From: a bacterium
GTDB lineage: Bacteria; Zhuqueibacterota; QNDG01; JAFGCO01
Assembly (NCBI GenBank): GCA_016932575.1
Contig: JAFGCO010000027.1
Span: 1-61,403, forward strand
DNA length: 61,403 bases
Direction: 5' to 3'
The notes beneath the pieces are model-generated. The model worked only from the letters and a program-made list of their open reading frames with translations, had not been told where the DNA came from and searched no databases. Position 1 is the first letter of the stretch. Every line of letters begins with the position of its first letter. A program made the translations under genes and the position numbers. This document shows, in pieces, positions 12,368 through 18,737 of the stretch.

Positions 12368-12693
12368 TATGGATTGAAAATCTCAAAAAAATCAACATTT
12401 CATCCGCTTCTATACATAAGTGTATCATTCGATATATTTCCACCGAAGATAGCTTCGATTAAACTATTCAAGATACAAAAAAACAATCATTTCTTCAAGC
12501 ATTATTCAAAAATTAAAATTTACTGCATGCAATTGCCGGCGCATTATTAAACTGAACAGAAGGATGAATGATATAATGAATTAAATTTTCGCTTGAAAAC
12601 ATTAATACGATTTATTATATTTATTACGATTTTAGTTTAATTTTATTTTTATCGTAATTTGAAACTTTTTTCGTATAAAAAGGTATATTAAGT
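12368..12693. other. Divergent intergenic region with candidate TetR operator
   Basis: The region between the leftward radical SAM operon and the rightward tetR gene is AT-rich and has no coding potential. It must hold promoters for both directions. Inverted arms ATTACGAT (12623-12630) and ATCGTAAT (12651-12658) with a 20-nt spacer lie 36 nt upstream of the tetR start, and a third related octamer, ATACGATT, lies at 12605-12612. These are candidate binding sites for the adjacent regulator. Confidence 0.4.
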
Positions 12694-13290
12694 ATGAACC
12701 ATATTGAAAATTCAAAACTAAAGCAGCTCAACGCTACAGCAATGGAGCTCTTTCTGAAATTTGGTTTTAAGCGCGTCTCTGTTGAAGAAATTTGTCGGAC
12801 AGCAGGTGTCAGCAAGATGACATTCTACAAATATTTTAAAAATAAAACTGACCTGTTAAAACAGATGCTCAACCAGATAGCCGACAATCAAATGAAGCAA
12901 TATAACAATATCATGAGCAGTGATATTTCCTATTCAGAAAAAGTTAAAGAAATCATCCGAATGAAGCAGTTAACAGCTGAGATGATGGGCCAGGAGCTTT
13001 TCAATGACTTGTATAATAATGCACCTCCTGAAATATCAGAATACCTGCATAATATAGGGATCAGGCTTCTTTCAACTGTTCGCAATGATTTTATTCAGGC
13101 ACAAAAAGAAGGTCATATTCGCTCAGATATTCATCCCGATTTTATTCTCTATTTCATGAATCATATGATCGATCTGGCATCCGATGAAAATCTGATTAAA
13201 CTGTATGATTCACCGAAGGCGCTGATCAATGAAATGATCCGATTCTTTTTTTATGGAATCCTCACGGAAAAGGATACCATGTCCTCATGA
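12694..13290 (+). CDS. TetR/AcrR-family transcriptional regulator
   Basis: 198 residues with an N-terminal helix-turn-helix (about 8-55): ATAMELFLKFGFKRVSVEEI, then AGVSKMTFYKYFKNKTDLL, the classic TetR signature. The C-terminal ligand domain (about 75-195) is divergent and helical, with no clue to the ligand. Its stop codon overlaps the start of the next gene by 4 nt (ATGA), so it is transcribed with the barrel gene and probably governs the following export genes. Inverted repeats upstream suggest autorepression. Confidence 0.93.
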   Translation: MNHIENSKLKQLNATAMELFLKFGFKRVSVEEICRTAGVSKMTFYKYFKNKTDLLKQMLNQIADNQMKQYNNIMSSDISYSEKVKEIIRMKQLTAEMMGQELFNDLYNNAPPEISEYLHNIGIRLLSTVRNDFIQAQKEGHIRSDIHPDFILYFMNHMIDLASDENLIKLYDSPKALINEMIRFFFYGILTEKDTMSS

Positions 13291-14378
13291 AACGGCTGTT
13301 ATGGATATTTTTGTTCATTTCAACGGGCTCCCTGTTCGGACAAACCGCCGACCTGACCGGACAAGCTTCTCTCTGGGGCGTATCCAACGATCAGACAACA
13401 TCCCAAATCGGAATAAGATATATACCAGCACTGTCATTGGCGCAGAATCTCTCAAATAAATGGATCATTGATTCGGAAATCGCCTGGCAATGCGCTAAAT
13501 GGTGGCAATTCGAAAATTGGAGATATCAATCCGAGGCCAAAAAATTGAAACCTTATCGTATGTGGCTGCGCATATCGACCGATCAATTCGAAGCCAGATT
13601 GGGATTACAGAAAATCAATTTTGGCTCTGCGCGGCTGATTCGTCCCCTCATGTGGTTTGATCGGCTGGACCCCAGGGATCCTTTGCAGTTGACCGACGGT
13701 GTAAATGCCATTTTAATGAAATATACATTTTTAAACAACGCCAATATATGGGCATGGGGATTGTACGGAAATGAGGATATCAAAGGATATGAAATCCTTC
13801 CGACCCAAAAAAACACCCTCGAATTCGGAGGACGGTTTCAATATCCGCTGCCATCCGGAGAAATTGCTTTAACAATGAATCAACGCCGCGTTAAAAATAT
13901 CGAATCTTTGGAGCGACGTATTGCCTTCGACGGCCGGTGGGACATTGAAATCGGCATCTGGCTTGAACTCACACTGACTCATCTTGAATGGGATCGATTG
14001 CCATATCAATATCAGACAATGGGTACATTGGGGCTGGATTACACTTTCGGGATCGGTAACGGTTTCTACTGTCAGGCTGAGCATTTTACATTTCGGATTT
14101 CCGATAAATGGAGTGATCCCGGAACCACGCGAAAGTTGACCGCTTTATCTTTAAATTATCCGTTGGGATTGATAGACAATCTCATCACAATGATCTATTA
14201 TGACTGGGATGAGCATGACCTGTACCGCTTCATCAACTGGCAGCGGACCTATGATTCCTGGCAAATTCATCTGATCGGTTTTTGGAATCCAGAGCAATTT
14301 CAACTCATTCAATTCCAAACCGGTCAATCATTATGGATGGGAAAAGGCATACAATGTATGGTGGTGTTTAATCACTGA
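13287..14378 (+). CDS. Predicted outer-membrane beta-barrel protein
   Basis: 363 residues with a cleavable signal peptide (MKRLLWIFLFISTGSLFGQ). The mature part is rich in alternating amphipathic strands with aromatic residues (Trp, Tyr, Phe), for example YRMWLRISTDQFEARLGLQK and GLDYTFGIGNGFYCQAEHF, as in porin-like or alginate-export-like barrels. I do not recognise a named family. It overlaps tetR by 4 nt and precedes the ABC transporter genes by 163 nt. By context it may be the outer-membrane part or client of the transporter encoded downstream. Confidence 0.75.
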   Translation: MKRLLWIFLFISTGSLFGQTADLTGQASLWGVSNDQTTSQIGIRYIPALSLAQNLSNKWIIDSEIAWQCAKWWQFENWRYQSEAKKLKPYRMWLRISTDQFEARLGLQKINFGSARLIRPLMWFDRLDPRDPLQLTDGVNAILMKYTFLNNANIWAWGLYGNEDIKGYEILPTQKNTLEFGGRFQYPLPSGEIALTMNQRRVKNIESLERRIAFDGRWDIEIGIWLELTLTHLEWDRLPYQYQTMGTLGLDYTFGIGNGFYCQAEHFTFRISDKWSDPGTTRKLTALSLNYPLGLIDNLITMIYYDWDEHDLYRFINWQRTYDSWQIHLIGFWNPEQFQLIQFQTGQSLWMGKGIQCMVVFNH

Positions 14379-14541
14379 CAAAATGATGTATGCACTGAAA
14401 ATAACAGGAATAAACAAAAAATTTTGAACAACAAATTGACTTGATGCGAAAATAACATAAATACTGAAATTTTTTTAATGATAATATGCATCTTGAATAG
14501 TTAACAAAACAGACAACAACCCTTTTCTGCGCGAGGTCATT

Positions 14542-15273
14542 ATGGAAAACGGCAAACTCATCACCATACAAAACCTGGTAAAGCATTACCCCATGGGTAA
14601 AGGCCGGTTCACTGCACTGAAAGATATCAATCTCACCTTTGAAAAAGGGGAATTCAGCGGTGTGGTCGGTCCGAGCGGCTCAGGGAAAACCACGTTATTG
14701 AATATTATGGGATCCCTGGATGTGCCCTCAGAAGGCACAGTCCGTGTTCTGGGCAGTGAAATCGGCACGCTTTCACATAAAGCGGCTGCCCGTCTGAGAA
14801 ACCACAATATTGGATTTATCTTCCAGACCTATAATCTGATGCCGGTATATAATGTATTTGAAAATGTTGAATTCCCGCTGCTCCTGCTGAAGATGCCTGT
14901 AAAAGAACGCAGACAGGCCGTGCTGGATGCCCTGGAATGGGTGGGTCTGTCTGATAAAGTCAAATCACGGCCCAAACAGCTCTCCGGAGGAGAATCCCAG
15001 CGTGTGTCTATTGCAAGGGCCATGGTAAAACGACCGCATATTGTCCTGGCGGACGAACCAACAGCCAATCTGGATGCAGATAATTCTCATCACATTCTTC
15101 AGACCATGGAAAAATTAAACCGGGATTTAAAAACCACATTCATATTTGCCACCCACGATGACAAGGTCATTCAATATTTAAAAAGAAAGATTTCACTGGC
15201 AGACGGAAAAGTGCAATCGGATGAAAAAAGCCCGGGGAACCGGAATCCGGAATCCGGACATGAGATTCAGTAA
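14542..15273 (+). CDS. ABC transporter ATP-binding protein (LolD/MacB type)
   Basis: 243 residues. Walker A GPSGSGKT (43-50), Q-loop region GFIFQTYNLMPVYNVFENVE, signature LSGGESQRVSIARAM, Walker B HIVLADEPTANLD and the H-loop FATHDD are all intact. The residues around the Q-loop (NLMPVYNVFENVEFP) are typical of the LolD/MacB/FtsE subgroup, which powers mechanotransmission through FtsX-type permeases rather than classic import. Two FtsX-type permease genes follow directly. A GAGG site precedes the ATG. Confidence 0.93.
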   Translation: MENGKLITIQNLVKHYPMGKGRFTALKDINLTFEKGEFSGVVGPSGSGKTTLLNIMGSLDVPSEGTVRVLGSEIGTLSHKAAARLRNHNIGFIFQTYNLMPVYNVFENVEFPLLLLKMPVKERRQAVLDALEWVGLSDKVKSRPKQLSGGESQRVSIARAMVKRPHIVLADEPTANLDADNSHHILQTMEKLNRDLKTTFIFATHDDKVIQYLKRKISLADGKVQSDEKSPGNRNPESGHEIQ

Positions 15274-15293
15274 TTTAACATGGAGAGATAAAA

Positions 15294-16463
15294 ATGCTCG
15301 CAATAAAACTGGCTTTTAAAAATTTGATAGGCGCCGGGCTGAGAACCTGGCTGAATGCGTTTGTGCTCTCCATTGCCTATGTGGTCATTATCTGGCACAG
15401 CGGTATTCTGGAGGGCTGGAACCGGCAGGCCAGACGGGATATGATCGACTGGCAGATCGGAGGAGGCGAGGTCTGGCAGAAAAATTACGATCCCTATGAT
15501 CCGTTCACCTTAACAGATGCACACGCGCCGGTTCCGGAAAAATTTCAGGAACAAATCAAGGCTGGAAAGCTGACACCGATTCTGGTAACGTCCGGCAGTT
15601 TCTATCCCGAAGGCCGCATTCAAAGCGTGCTGCTGAAAGGCATTGATCCGCAGCAATCGATTCTGAAATTACCAGCCGGCTCCCTTCAAAAAGATAACGA
15701 GGCAATTCCTGCCATGATCGGAACCCGTATGGCAAAAAACAACCGGCTCAAGGAAGGGGATTATGTGACCATTCGCTGGCGCGACGCGCTTGGAACATTT
15801 GATGCGGCTGAAATAAAAATCGCACGAATTTTTAAAACCAGTGTTCCCGCCGTTGACAATGGCCAGATCTGGCTTCCCCTGGATCAGCTGCAGAATATGC
15901 TTCAGATGCCCGGTGAGGCCACCTATTTGATTCTGGAACCCGGACAAAATCCCATCAAAATCAGTGGATGGCAGCATCAGGGATACGACGTGCTTCTGGC
16001 GGAAATGGATGAAATTATCCGCCGTAAATCCATCGGCGGCACCATTCTCTACACAATTATGCTTTTGCTTGCCATGCTGGCAATCTTTGACACACAGGTC
16101 TTTGCCATATTCAGGCGGCAGAAAGAAATCGGTACAGACATTGCCCTGGGCATGACCCGCGGTCAGGTGATCGGCCTGTTCACGGTAGAAGGCGCCGTGC
16201 ATGGCATTCTTGCAGCAGTCATGGCGGCCATATACGGCATTCCGCTTTTGTCCATGCAGGCCGTACACGGAATGGCCATGCCCGAGGGTATGGACGATTA
16301 CGGGCTGGCCGGCGCGGAGAGGATCTTTCCGGTCTACAGCACGGCGTTGATCATCGGAACAGTCATTCTTGTCATGATCACCACGACCATTGTCAGCTAT
16401 CTGCCGTCTCTTAAGATTGCGAAAATGAAACCGACAGACGCTATACGGGGGAAATTACAATGA
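15294..16463 (+). CDS. FtsX/MacB-type ABC permease, first of pair
   Basis: 389 residues. Topology is the MacB/LolC pattern: one N-terminal helix (about 18-38), a large periplasmic domain (about 40-245), then three helices near the C-terminus (about 250-270, 295-320 and 345-368). The end TIVSYLPSLKIAKMKPTDAIRGK is the characteristic FtsX-permease tail (PS..A...P..ALR). The periplasmic domain is soluble-like and likely handles a lipid or lipoprotein. It starts 20 nt after the ATPase gene with a GGAGA site and overlaps the next permease by 4 nt. Confidence 0.9.
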   Translation: MLAIKLAFKNLIGAGLRTWLNAFVLSIAYVVIIWHSGILEGWNRQARRDMIDWQIGGGEVWQKNYDPYDPFTLTDAHAPVPEKFQEQIKAGKLTPILVTSGSFYPEGRIQSVLLKGIDPQQSILKLPAGSLQKDNEAIPAMIGTRMAKNNRLKEGDYVTIRWRDALGTFDAAEIKIARIFKTSVPAVDNGQIWLPLDQLQNMLQMPGEATYLILEPGQNPIKISGWQHQGYDVLLAEMDEIIRRKSIGGTILYTIMLLLAMLAIFDTQVFAIFRRQKEIGTDIALGMTRGQVIGLFTVEGAVHGILAAVMAAIYGIPLLSMQAVHGMAMPEGMDDYGLAGAERIFPVYSTALIIGTVILVMITTTIVSYLPSLKIAKMKPTDAIRGKLQ

Positions 16464-17734
16464 TCCGATTTATCATCAAAGGACTGATCCGGGACCGGCA
16501 TCGCAGCCTGTTCCCCATGATCACAGTCACCATGGGCGTGGCACTGACTGTGGTCGCCCATTGCTGGGTCAACGGTATAATAGGAGACTTTATCGATTAC
16601 AACGCCCGCTATGCCACCGGCCATGCCAAAGTCGTGACCCGGGCATATGCTGAAAATCTGGATCAATCTCCCAATGACCTGGCTCTGCTCGATGTCGATC
16701 AGTGGATGGACACACTCAGCCATCGATATCCGGATTTGGACTGGGTGGCCCGGATTAAATTTGGAGGCATTCTTGATGCGCCGGACAGTCTTGGAGAAAC
16801 CCGGGCTCAGGGGCCTGCTTTCGGCTTTGGTATTAATCTGCTTTCAAAAAACAGCCGGGAAATTGAACGAATGGGCATTCGTGACGGATTGATCCGGGGC
16901 CGGTTACCGCAAGATTCGGGTGAAGTCCTGATCAGTGAATCCTTCGCGAGACGGCTGGAGGTATCGCCGGGGGATACCGTTACCCTGCTTGGAGCAACCA
17001 TGTACGGCGCCATGTCCGTGCATAATTTTCGTATTTCCGGAACCGTTACTTTTGGCGTCAAGCTTCTGGACCGTGGCGCGCTCATTGCAGATATTAAGGA
17101 AATCAGGAAAGCATTGGATATGGAAAACGCAGCCGGAGAGCTTCTCGGCATTGCCAAAGACCACCATTACGATGACGATCAAATGAATCAAATCAAATCC
17201 GATTTCAACCGGCATTTTTCTGAAAGCCAGGACGAATTTTCTCCGGTCATGCTCTCCCTGGCCGAACAAAATGACCTTGCCAGCATGCTTGAATATATAC
17301 AAAGCATGGTCACAATTATGATATTTGTTTTTGTTCTGGCCATGTGCATTGTTTTGTGGAATGCCGGCCTGATCGGCGGACTGCGCCGCTATGGAGAAAT
17401 TGGTGTGCGGCTGGCAATCGGAGAAAACAAGGGGCATCTTTATCGGGCTATGATTCTGGAGTCTGCATCCATTGGGTTTTTTGGCTCGATACTCGGGACA
17501 ATAGCGGGTTTGGGCATCGCCTGGTATTTGCAGACGTATGGCATCAATATCGGAGATTTAATGGAAAATGCCACCATGATGATGCCCAACACATTTCGGG
17601 CCGGCATCACGCCGCCTGCCTATTTTATAGGCATCATTCCCGGCCTGATTGCAACCGTTCTGGGTACATCCCTGTCCGGTATCGGGATTTATCGCCGGCA
17701 GACCGCCTCACTGTTTAAGGAACTCGAAGCCTAA
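16460..17734 (+). CDS. FtsX/MacB-type ABC permease, second of pair
   Basis: 424 residues with the same layout as its neighbour: N-terminal helix near residues 17-40, periplasmic domain to about 275, and three C-terminal helices (about 282-305, 325-355 and 380-405). RRYGEIGVRLAIGENKGHLY is the conserved cytoplasmic coupling-helix region of FtsX permeases. Two different permeases beside one ATPase suggest a heterodimeric transporter of LolCDE type. The ATGA overlap with the preceding gene indicates tight coupling. Substrate unknown; the LolA-like gene downstream suggests a lipid-linked cargo. Confidence 0.9.
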   Translation: MIRFIIKGLIRDRHRSLFPMITVTMGVALTVVAHCWVNGIIGDFIDYNARYATGHAKVVTRAYAENLDQSPNDLALLDVDQWMDTLSHRYPDLDWVARIKFGGILDAPDSLGETRAQGPAFGFGINLLSKNSREIERMGIRDGLIRGRLPQDSGEVLISESFARRLEVSPGDTVTLLGATMYGAMSVHNFRISGTVTFGVKLLDRGALIADIKEIRKALDMENAAGELLGIAKDHHYDDDQMNQIKSDFNRHFSESQDEFSPVMLSLAEQNDLASMLEYIQSMVTIMIFVFVLAMCIVLWNAGLIGGLRRYGEIGVRLAIGENKGHLYRAMILESASIGFFGSILGTIAGLGIAWYLQTYGINIGDLMENATMMMPNTFRAGITPPAYFIGIIPGLIATVLGTSLSGIGIYRRQTASLFKELEA

Positions 17735-17742
17735 GTGAGGAT

Positions 17743-17932
17743 AAATTCCAAATGACAAAATCCAAAATTAACTGCAAATAATTACCGAGGTTAATTTAAT
17801 AAATCAGTCAATTTAAATAACCGATAAAATATTCTGTTTATCATCCGGATTTTGGAATTTATTTGAAATTTAGATTTTGATATTTGGAATTTTGAATTTA
17901 TTTGTTATTTGTAATTTGTCATCTGAAATTTT
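17743..17932. repeat. AT-rich repeat element with inverted ends (AAATTCCAAAT family)
   Basis: The ends 17743-17761 and 17914-17932 are imperfect inverted copies (AAATTCCAAATGACAAAAT against AATTTGTCATCTGAAATTT), and the right half is built of repeated TTTGGAATTT and ATTTGTTATTT phrases. The same phrase family appears at 521-562 and over several hundred bases at 55811-56658. It separates the permease genes from the LolA-like gene and could form a long hairpin. Confidence 0.6.
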
Positions 17933-18005
17933 TGTAATAGATCACAATCCTTGAAGGCTTAAAAACAATGAACTGAAATATCATTCATCCGTATTGGAGT
18001 CAATC

Positions 18006-18737
18006 ATGAAGCATATCATCATTTATTTTCTCACAACATTGACATTATATGCCCAGTATCCTGACGGGAATGTCCTGCTCGAAAAAATCGACAGGAACAT
18101 GATCAGCAGAAACAAAATTATCATTTCCAGAATGATCATTCACGGCCGCCGGGCGAGCAGGACCATCGAATCCAAATCATGGATTCAAGGCTCGGAAAAA
18201 TCGTTCACCGAATATCTTTCACCGGCCCGGGAAAAGGGCACAAAAATGCTGAAGCTGGATGACGAGCTCTGGACCTACTCCCCCTCCGCTGACCGGTCCA
18301 TCCGGATTTCCGGTCATATGCTTCGCCAGTCTGTCATGGGATCCGACCTGAGCTATGAAGATATGATGGAAGACCCGAAAATGCAAAATTTATACAGCGC
18401 CGGGGTCATTGGTGAAGACACACTCTTAAACCGCTCTTGCTGGATACTGGAACTGCAGGCTAAAGTGCCAGATGTGGCCTACCATTCCCGTAAAATCTGG
18501 GTGGACAAAACACGGTATAATATTTTAAAAGAAGAACGATTCGCAAAAAGCGGTAAACTGCTGAAGACCACAGATATTCTTGAAATCATGCAGGCGGATG
18601 ACCGCTGGGTAGCCAAACGTATTATATTTAAAGATGCCTTGAAACAGGGCCGGGGTACGGAGTTTATTTTGGAATCGATTGAATTTGATGCCCATATTCC
18701 TGATTATATTTTTTCAAAGGCAGCATTAAGAAAGTAA
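18006..18737 (+). CDS. LolA-like outer-membrane lipoprotein-sorting protein
   Basis: 243 residues from the ATG at 18006, chosen because GGAG lies 6 nt upstream; an in-frame TTG 12 nt earlier overlaps that site. A signal peptide (MKHIIIYFLTTLTLYAQ) is followed by a domain of the PF17131 LolA-like type, with SWIQGSEKSFTEYLSPAREK, GTKMLKLDDELWTYSPS, RQSVMGSDLSYEDMM and the late strand RKIWVDKTRYNILKEE. Members bind acylated cargo in the periplasm. It follows the two-permease ABC genes and completes a plausible inner-membrane-to-outer-membrane route. The 271-nt gap from the permease gene is filled mainly by a repeat. Confidence 0.88.
   Translation: MKHIIIYFLTTLTLYAQYPDGNVLLEKIDRNMISRNKIIISRMIIHGRRASRTIESKSWIQGSEKSFTEYLSPAREKGTKMLKLDDELWTYSPSADRSIRISGHMLRQSVMGSDLSYEDMMEDPKMQNLYSAGVIGEDTLLNRSCWILELQAKVPDVAYHSRKIWVDKTRYNILKEERFAKSGKLLKTTDILEIMQADDRWVAKRIIFKDALKQGRGTEFILESIEFDAHIPDYIFSKAALRK

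Follow-up and report, generated by a model that had tools for sequence, protein, structure and literature searches.

Six adjacent genes that together appear to reach from the inner to the outer membrane raise the question of what they carry, and of whether they form a second Lol-type route. They lie on contig JAFGCO010000027.1 of assembly GCA_016932575.1 (GTDB lineage Zhuqueibacterota; QNDG01; JAFGCO01), of which positions 1 to 61,403 were analysed. This whole stretch is called the window, and coordinates given without a locus label are positions in it. The locus consists of six open reading frames (ORFs), all on the + strand between 12694 and 18737, encoding, in this order, a TetR-family regulator, a predicted outer-membrane barrel, an ATP-binding cassette (ABC) ATPase, two FtsX-type permeases (PermA and PermB) and a LolA-like carrier (Table 1). 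The original prediction, made from the sequence alone, had described a regulator and five transport-related genes on one strand, with two 4-nt overlaps, and had read them as a second, inducible export route for lipids or lipoproteins. All six ORFs and both overlaps (TetR/barrel, 13287-13290; PermA/PermB, 16460-16463) were found as described.

The explanation favoured here, which is given somewhat better than an even chance, is that the locus encodes an exporter which is inducible, runs on ATP and moves an amphiphilic or hydrophobic compound across the envelope, and is the ABC-energised counterpart of the AmeABCD-type exporters, which are driven by a resistance-nodulation-division (RND) pump. 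It is built on the computed gene set, gene order and co-occurrence, on the folds, on a remote kinship of the barrel with RND-linked barrels and on a conserved operator.

Recurrence of the gene set

A set of 99 genomes was searched separately with the barrel and with PermB. Matches were found in 42 and 43 genomes, respectively: both proteins matched in 39, the barrel alone in 3, PermB alone in 4 and neither in 53 (Fisher p = 2e-19). The three barrel-only genomes (G041, G068 and G071) gave partial matches; two of the PermB-only ones (G024, G069) have it on short contigs ending inside the gene set, and the other two (G087, G098) hold distant relatives, with 25-27% identity. The barrel and PermB genes are at most 5 kb apart in 33 of the 39 genomes with both; of the other six genomes, five have them separated by contig breaks, and in G044 they are truly rearranged.

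A contig scan with the barrel alignment gave 263 relatives, the best 80 of which were kept and added to loci found earlier, for a total of 118 loci with the barrel, or 104 once dereplicated. The order barrel-ATPase-PermA-PermB-carrier is found in 77 of the 104 loci, and 22 of the remaining 27 are cut by a contig end. Of the 82 loci of sufficient length, five remain as exceptions. In two of them, L112 (with a long ORF start) and L080 (with a diverged barrel), the five genes are all present, and the score of incomplete is an artefact; in L037 the genes are unlinked, and L113 and L130 are the other exceptions. The last five genes, from barrel to carrier, are a real module, in front of which the TetR gene is common but not universal. 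Occurrence of the same set in other genomes together with the barrel, as the original prediction had expected, is borne out by these counts, and almost every complete locus has both the barrel and the LolA-like gene next to the transporter.

With phylum names as given in the database records, the best 80 of the 263 barrel loci come from Aminicenantes, KSB1, Calditrichota, Bacteroidota, Ignavibacteriota and sulfate reducers (Desulfobacterota-type), plus single records of other groups. In a tree of PermB, three rows cluster with the window (95*), two of them from KSB1 and one from Calditrichaceae, and other KSB1 rows are placed elsewhere; this scattered placement is compatible with transfer or with an old duplication. 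Many of the bacteria with this gene order are uncultured. Besides the 104 loci, all six genes are present on a closed replicon of Persicobacter psychrovividus, a cultured type strain, which makes the question testable in a host that can be grown. Only two records were found by searching plasmids with the barrel, both from Persicobacter.

A recurring cargo or biosynthesis gene was looked for near the module and not found, no other gene family being present in more than 5 of the 104 loci, as expected for a self-contained efflux unit. Genes resembling those for membrane-fusion proteins (MFP) and for TolC, names which were read off the sequences with no family search, each lie near the module in 5 of the 104 loci (L054, L069, L139, L072 and L052) and hint at efflux islands. 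A second copy of the two permeases, with no barrel or carrier in the stretch covered, was observed in genome G009 (L228, 6604-9044).

Table 1. Features of the locus, with positions in the 61,403-nt window.
Feature	Position	Strand	Basis
Promoter-like TTGAAA-N17-TATATT (10/12 positions), overlapping the outer operator half-site	12593..12621	+	weak
Nested half-sites ATACGAT (12605-12611) and TTCGTAT (12670-12676), with the same centre, 12640.5, as the main operator	12605..12676		read from sequence
Probable TetR operator ATTACGAT-N20-ATCGTAAT, 36 bp	12623..12658		exact inverted repeat; not expected by chance in the window
TetR-family regulator, 198 aa	12694..13290	+	PF00440 (TetR_N) 2.3e-14
Outer-membrane barrel (predicted), 363 aa, signal peptide and 18 strands, highly conserved loop 109-138	13287..14378	+	predicted structure, conservation; no Pfam/NCBIfam match
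ABC ATPase, LolD/FtsE/MacB type, 243 aa	14542..15273	+	PF00005 (ABC_tran) 3.3e-34; TIGR02211 238.4 bits, cut-off 307.75
FtsX-type permease A (PermA), LolC-leaning, 389 aa	15294..16463	+	PF02687 2.6e-14; TIGR02212 1.4e-12, far below cut-off
FtsX-type permease B (PermB), LolE-leaning, 424 aa	16460..17734	+	PF02687 1.2e-14; TIGR02212 2e-9, far below cut-off
Periplasmic LolA_like carrier, 243 aa, signal peptide without lipobox	18006..18737	+	PF17131 3.9e-57; AlphaFold2 model and structural neighbours

Transporter, carrier and barrel compared with the Lol system

The best NCBIfam match of the ATPase is LolD (TIGR02211), at a score below the cut-off, and the best equivalog of PermA and PermB is LolCE (TIGR02212), with 47.3 and 36.9 bits, far below the cut-off of 362.45. 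On this match a MacB identity of the permeases was dropped for a LolCE-like one, so that the MacB/LolC-type pair of the original prediction, once compared with LolC and LolE, keeps its LolC side only, at low scores; the MacB-like FtsX pairs of this genome are others, at L057 and L059. A separate PF03548 LolA is encoded elsewhere in it (C18:87741), and contig C24 (L056) carries a LolCE-like permease (357.7 bits against 362.45) with a LolD-like ATPase (284.3 bits against 307.75), both just under their cut-offs. Other Lol-type genes thus exist beside the locus, which is not the only system of this type; this upholds the predicted distinctness of the locus from the housekeeping Lol system. A LolB-type receptor is absent from the six genes, the rest of the genome not having been searched for LolB.

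With LolCDE-LolA-LolB the locus shares a separate ATPase, two FtsX-type permeases and a periplasmic carrier of LolA fold; it differs in an ATPase and permeases below curated cut-offs, in a carrier outside PF03548, in a porin-like barrel replacing LolB and in its TetR operator. With MacAB-TolC it has in common an FtsX-type ABC permease and an exit through the outer membrane, whereas ATPase and permease are separate genes here, no membrane-fusion protein or TolC is found among the six genes, and a soluble carrier takes the place of the adaptor tube in the periplasm.

The carrier scores 193.3 bits with PF17131, above the gathering cut-off of 30; this is its sole Pfam match at E 0.01 or better, and PF03548 (LolA) is not matched. 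Its AlphaFold2 model has a predicted local distance difference test (pLDDT) of 90. The closest folds, with VIA Z of 24-28, are the DUF1329 protein 4z48 (Z 28.4, root-mean-square deviation (rmsd) 2.1, 225 residues), Porphyromonas gingivalis LolA3 (9tp6, Z 27.3), 3bk5 and 3buu, and LolB and LolA structures reach a Z of 15 or less. By family match and predicted fold, the carrier is a member of the PF17131/DUF1329 group rather than a canonical LolA: the LolA-type fold that had been predicted is retained, and its grouping is with these structures, not with LolA and LolB. A lipobox pattern occurs in 2 of 79 members of the carrier family, and the carrier is therefore read as soluble.

Searches of the barrel against Pfam, NCBIfam and PDB sequences gave no meaningful match, the hits being one at chance level and two at E 0.55-0.9; none of 35 members of the barrel family matched Pfam DUF1302 (PF06980) at E 0.1 or better. 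In the AlphaFold2 model, obtained from an alignment of 74 sequences (pLDDT 93), 18 strands follow directly after the signal peptide. Its structural neighbours, according to Foldseek and VIA-align, are general porins, Occ/OprD channels, chitoporin, MOMP, the alginate exporter AlgE and Wzi; the best match (Z 23.4, rmsd 3.1, 293 residues) is a likeness at fold level, with identities of 5-13% in the VIA list. Omp85 barrels are not among the listed fold matches, which are led by porins, Occ channels and AlgE, although by itself this excludes nothing. Loop 109-138, which would be the third extracellular loop assuming that both barrel ends are periplasmic, has a mean column identity of 91%, as compared to 22-55% for the other extracellular loops. 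Conservation is higher on the more polar faces of the strands (0.70 vs 0.51); lumen and lipid faces were set by hydropathy within each strand, so that the polar/apolar split arises partly by construction and the difference in conservation does not. As modelled, the barrel represents a porin-like family of 18 strands that has neither a name nor a Pfam or NCBIfam model. A barrel in place of LolB had been predicted; the barrel itself is confirmed at the level of prediction, but an insertase replacing LolB it does not look like, being porin-like with a polar, conserved lumen.

These data bear on the idea from which the analysis started, namely that the ABC transporter releases lipoproteins or lipids, the carrier ferries them and the barrel receives, inserts or surface-exposes them. 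The closeness of the ATPase to LolD and of the permeases to LolCE, as well as the LolA fold of the carrier, would fit it, and a cluster of ABC, LolA-like and Omp85 barrel genes, Borrelia BBJ23-29, has been proposed for the same role (PMC13078400). It is nevertheless considered unlikely. The permeases reach 47 and 37 bits against a cut-off of 362, the carrier falls outside PF03548, and the surroundings of the module in the 104 loci show no recurring family of lipoprotein genes. A porin-like barrel, homologous to RND-linked barrels (see below) and with a polar conserved lumen, would suit the passage of a solute rather than the insertion of lipoproteins. LolA3, a structural neighbour of the carrier, is reported to interact very weakly with LolB and to be without the LolA arginine and LolB leucine, and its authors suggest a separate function (PMC13103446). 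Since the carrier stands outside the LolA/LolB group, the barrel is porin-like and its remote relatives work with RND pumps that have been linked to hydrophobic small molecules, the cargo is probably an amphiphile, and a second lipoprotein route is less likely. What stands of the prediction is a second, complete and TetR-linked path across the envelope; a lipoprotein cargo is disfavoured.

The TetR regulator and its probable operator

The DNA-binding domain of the TetR protein (PF00440) scores 53.4 bits, above the cut-off of 24. The inverted repeat upstream of its gene, already pointed out as a possible TetR site, is exact, and its conservation supports its reading as an operator. The pattern TACGAT-N20-ATCGTA, with two mismatches at most, was found upstream of 37 of 51 TetR genes (consensus TACGAW-N20-WTCGTA), a count which is not blind, the half-site having been picked after viewing other TetR-upstream regions; gap specificity and shuffles serve as its control. 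Shuffles of the same regions gave a mean of 0.45 sites and a maximum of 2, and other gaps between 10 and 30 nt gave 0-5, so the 20-nt gap is specific. Among the 37 sites, TAC in the left half-site and GT in the right one are invariant. The same operator is found in 2 of 45 loci without TetR.

Within its own genome (4.41 Mb) the exact site occurs once only, at this locus. In the 99 genomes, 61 sites were counted in forward orientation and 56 in the reversed control; 14 of the 61 are at module loci and the 47 left, counted by hand, correspond to background. A wider TetR regulon was thus sought in these genomes and not found, and the single site, with background elsewhere, points to a dedicated, self-regulating switch rather than a regulon. 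The conserved operator would also be a direct handle for finding the inducer.

Upstream sequence of 700 nt or more is available for 92 loci, and in 50 of these the regulator precedes the module; TetR control, as predicted, is supported by linkage and by the conserved operator, but is not universal. A scan of 20 proteins included 18 upstream genes of TetR-less loci; these vary, and two are other TetR-type regulators. Divergently oriented DUF937 genes were observed upstream of the barrel in L068 and L070, which have no TetR.

Around the main operator, four half-sites between 12605 and 12676 form two nested pairs with a common centre, 12640.5, to which two TetR dimers may bind; the outer pair is possibly a second operator layer. 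The region has 21 promoter-like sites, only a few more than its shuffles (mean 14.9), which is weak evidence for the one listed. As for the carrier gene, the most likely start is the ATG at 18006, with GGAG 6 nt upstream, favoured over the TTG at 17994.

RND-driven relatives and the proposed export

Two loci on contig C24 of the same genome (L081, 8069-14659, and L082, 7282-12994) combine TetR, a PF17131 carrier, a barrel and an MMPL/RND pump; the barrel of L082 matches DUF1302. When the barrel family of the window was compared with the two RND-locus barrels by hhalign, E-values of 3.9e-13 (probability 97.9) and 4.2e-6 (probability 86.9) were obtained, while controls with reversed and unrelated families gave 0.03 to 0.6; all are E-values of single comparisons. 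A bridging barrel from G086 scores 86, 51 and 28 bits with the three barrel profiles, and in G098 an ABC-permease-carrier set stands next to a barrel fitting the RND-type profile only. DUF1302, MMPL and PF17131 genes are side by side on a Fusobacteriota plasmid. As the same plan of carrier and barrel is found with either ABC or RND, the energiser seems to be exchangeable while carrier and barrel stay.

The closest characterized precedent is AmeABCD of Castellaniella defragrans, reported to consist of a DUF1302 barrel, a DUF1329 protein of the LolA superfamily, AmeC and an HAE3 RND pump; its deletion lowered monoterpene tolerance and raised Nile Red accumulation (PMC6394551). Shared features are a remotely homologous barrel (through the DUF1302-matching barrel of L082), a carrier of the same structural group (4z48), the arrangement in one operon and the probable export of hydrophobes. 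The locus differs in its LolCDE-type ABC transporter with two permeases instead of the RND pump, in a barrel without a Pfam DUF1302 match and in having no AmeC-like protein. In P. gingivalis, the genes PG1175-81 (TetR, MMPL, lipoprotein-sorting protein) are described as up 13- to 136-fold in low iron (PMC10434189), and a set with the same gene names as up in low hemin (PMC10470040). PG1178-1181 (TetR, MMPL, lipoprotein-sorting protein and hypothetical protein) share with our locus the link to TetR and a carrier named after PF17131, and are, as reported, energised by MMPL/RND. The Borrelia BBJ23-29 cluster, a computational proposal of 2026 for a role in a lipoprotein/lipid route, likewise gathers an ABC ATPase, an FtsX-type permease, a LolA-like protein and an outer-membrane barrel; it has as its own an Omp85 barrel, one permease acting as a homodimer and TPR chaperones, and no TetR operator is described in the text available (PMC13078400). 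No Borrelia was among the 25 of 33 plasmid records matching the carrier that were listed. In the open-licence literature no published system with ABC, PF17131 and a porin-like barrel was found, the closest being those of PMC13078400 and PMC6394551.

From AmeABCD, P. putida (see below) and P. gingivalis, we infer that an ABC-driven version of the same plan exports amphiphiles; direction of transport, nature of the cargo, hand-over steps and ligand-released repression are all part of this proposal. A heteromeric transporter of LolCDE type (type VII) would lift the compound from the outer leaflet of the inner membrane and pass it to the soluble PF17131/DUF1329-type carrier, which would hold the greasy part in the groove of its half-barrel and cross the periplasm. 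The carrier would then dock at the 18-strand porin-like barrel, where the conserved loop and the charged lumen may let the cargo out. TetR would sit on the 36-bp operator before its own gene, and come off on binding the cargo or a compound related to it.

Two other readings were weighed against this one. FtsX-family permeases include mechanotransmitters, and the locus, linked to TetR as it is, could relay signals or envelope stress as FtsEX does, the ABC protein passing on a mechanical signal without moving any substrate. Such a relay would not need the dedicated carrier and the channel in the outer membrane that are conserved in the operon, and the set has no periplasmic enzyme; this reading is very improbable. 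Retrograde uptake, by which barrel and carrier bring in a hydrophobic nutrient for the ABC transporter to deliver to the inner membrane, is improbable too, if less so: LolCDE/MacB-type ABC transporters are known as exporters or extractors, and no catabolic gene family recurs beside the module in the 104 loci. Uptake would agree with a report that an MMPL/LolA-like protein of Thalassolituus and its porin-like neighbour rise on C28 alkane (PMC6304351). It would also agree with the P. putida DUF1302/DUF1329 gene pair, PP_0765/PP_0766, reported to be needed for growth on Tween 20 (PMC10866462).

Several points weigh against ATP-driven, TetR-controlled amphiphile export. The P. putida pair fits uptake as well as export, and the polar lumen face of the barrel would poorly fit a fully apolar cargo. 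Of the 92 loci whose upstream sequence extends over 700 nt or more, 42 lack this regulator, and in TetR-less loci neither upstream genes nor operators indicate one common control. In Persicobacter the TetR protein is more diverged, and no operator with two mismatches or fewer was found before its gene. Finally, G044 (L223, L037) is the sole clear case of an unlinked barrel, transporter and carrier being rearranged on another contig.

Beyond this locus, a widespread class of tube-less exporters may exist, in which a soluble shuttle of LolA fold would link a membrane extractor to a gated barrel of porin-like type, with ABC or RND as interchangeable energisers; the chances for and against it are judged to be equal. 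If it exists, the barrel family, for which Pfam and NCBIfam have no model, would be the dedicated outer-membrane exit of the class, and 'orphan' LolA paralogues with no role towards LolB, P. gingivalis LolA3 for example, would gain a function. For proteins bearing the common label 'outer membrane lipoprotein-sorting protein', the locus offers an alternative, a carrier role in self-contained export machines with a porin-like barrel as their final part.

Some related loci show further features. In L082 a GyrI-like small-molecule-binding protein, whose N-terminus resembles a signal peptide, is encoded beside the carrier. Distant relatives of the module were observed at L229 (4223-10593) and L230 (6080-10044); L229 has three permease genes, and its adjoining barrel fits the profile of the RND-type barrels, not that of the ABC-type ones.

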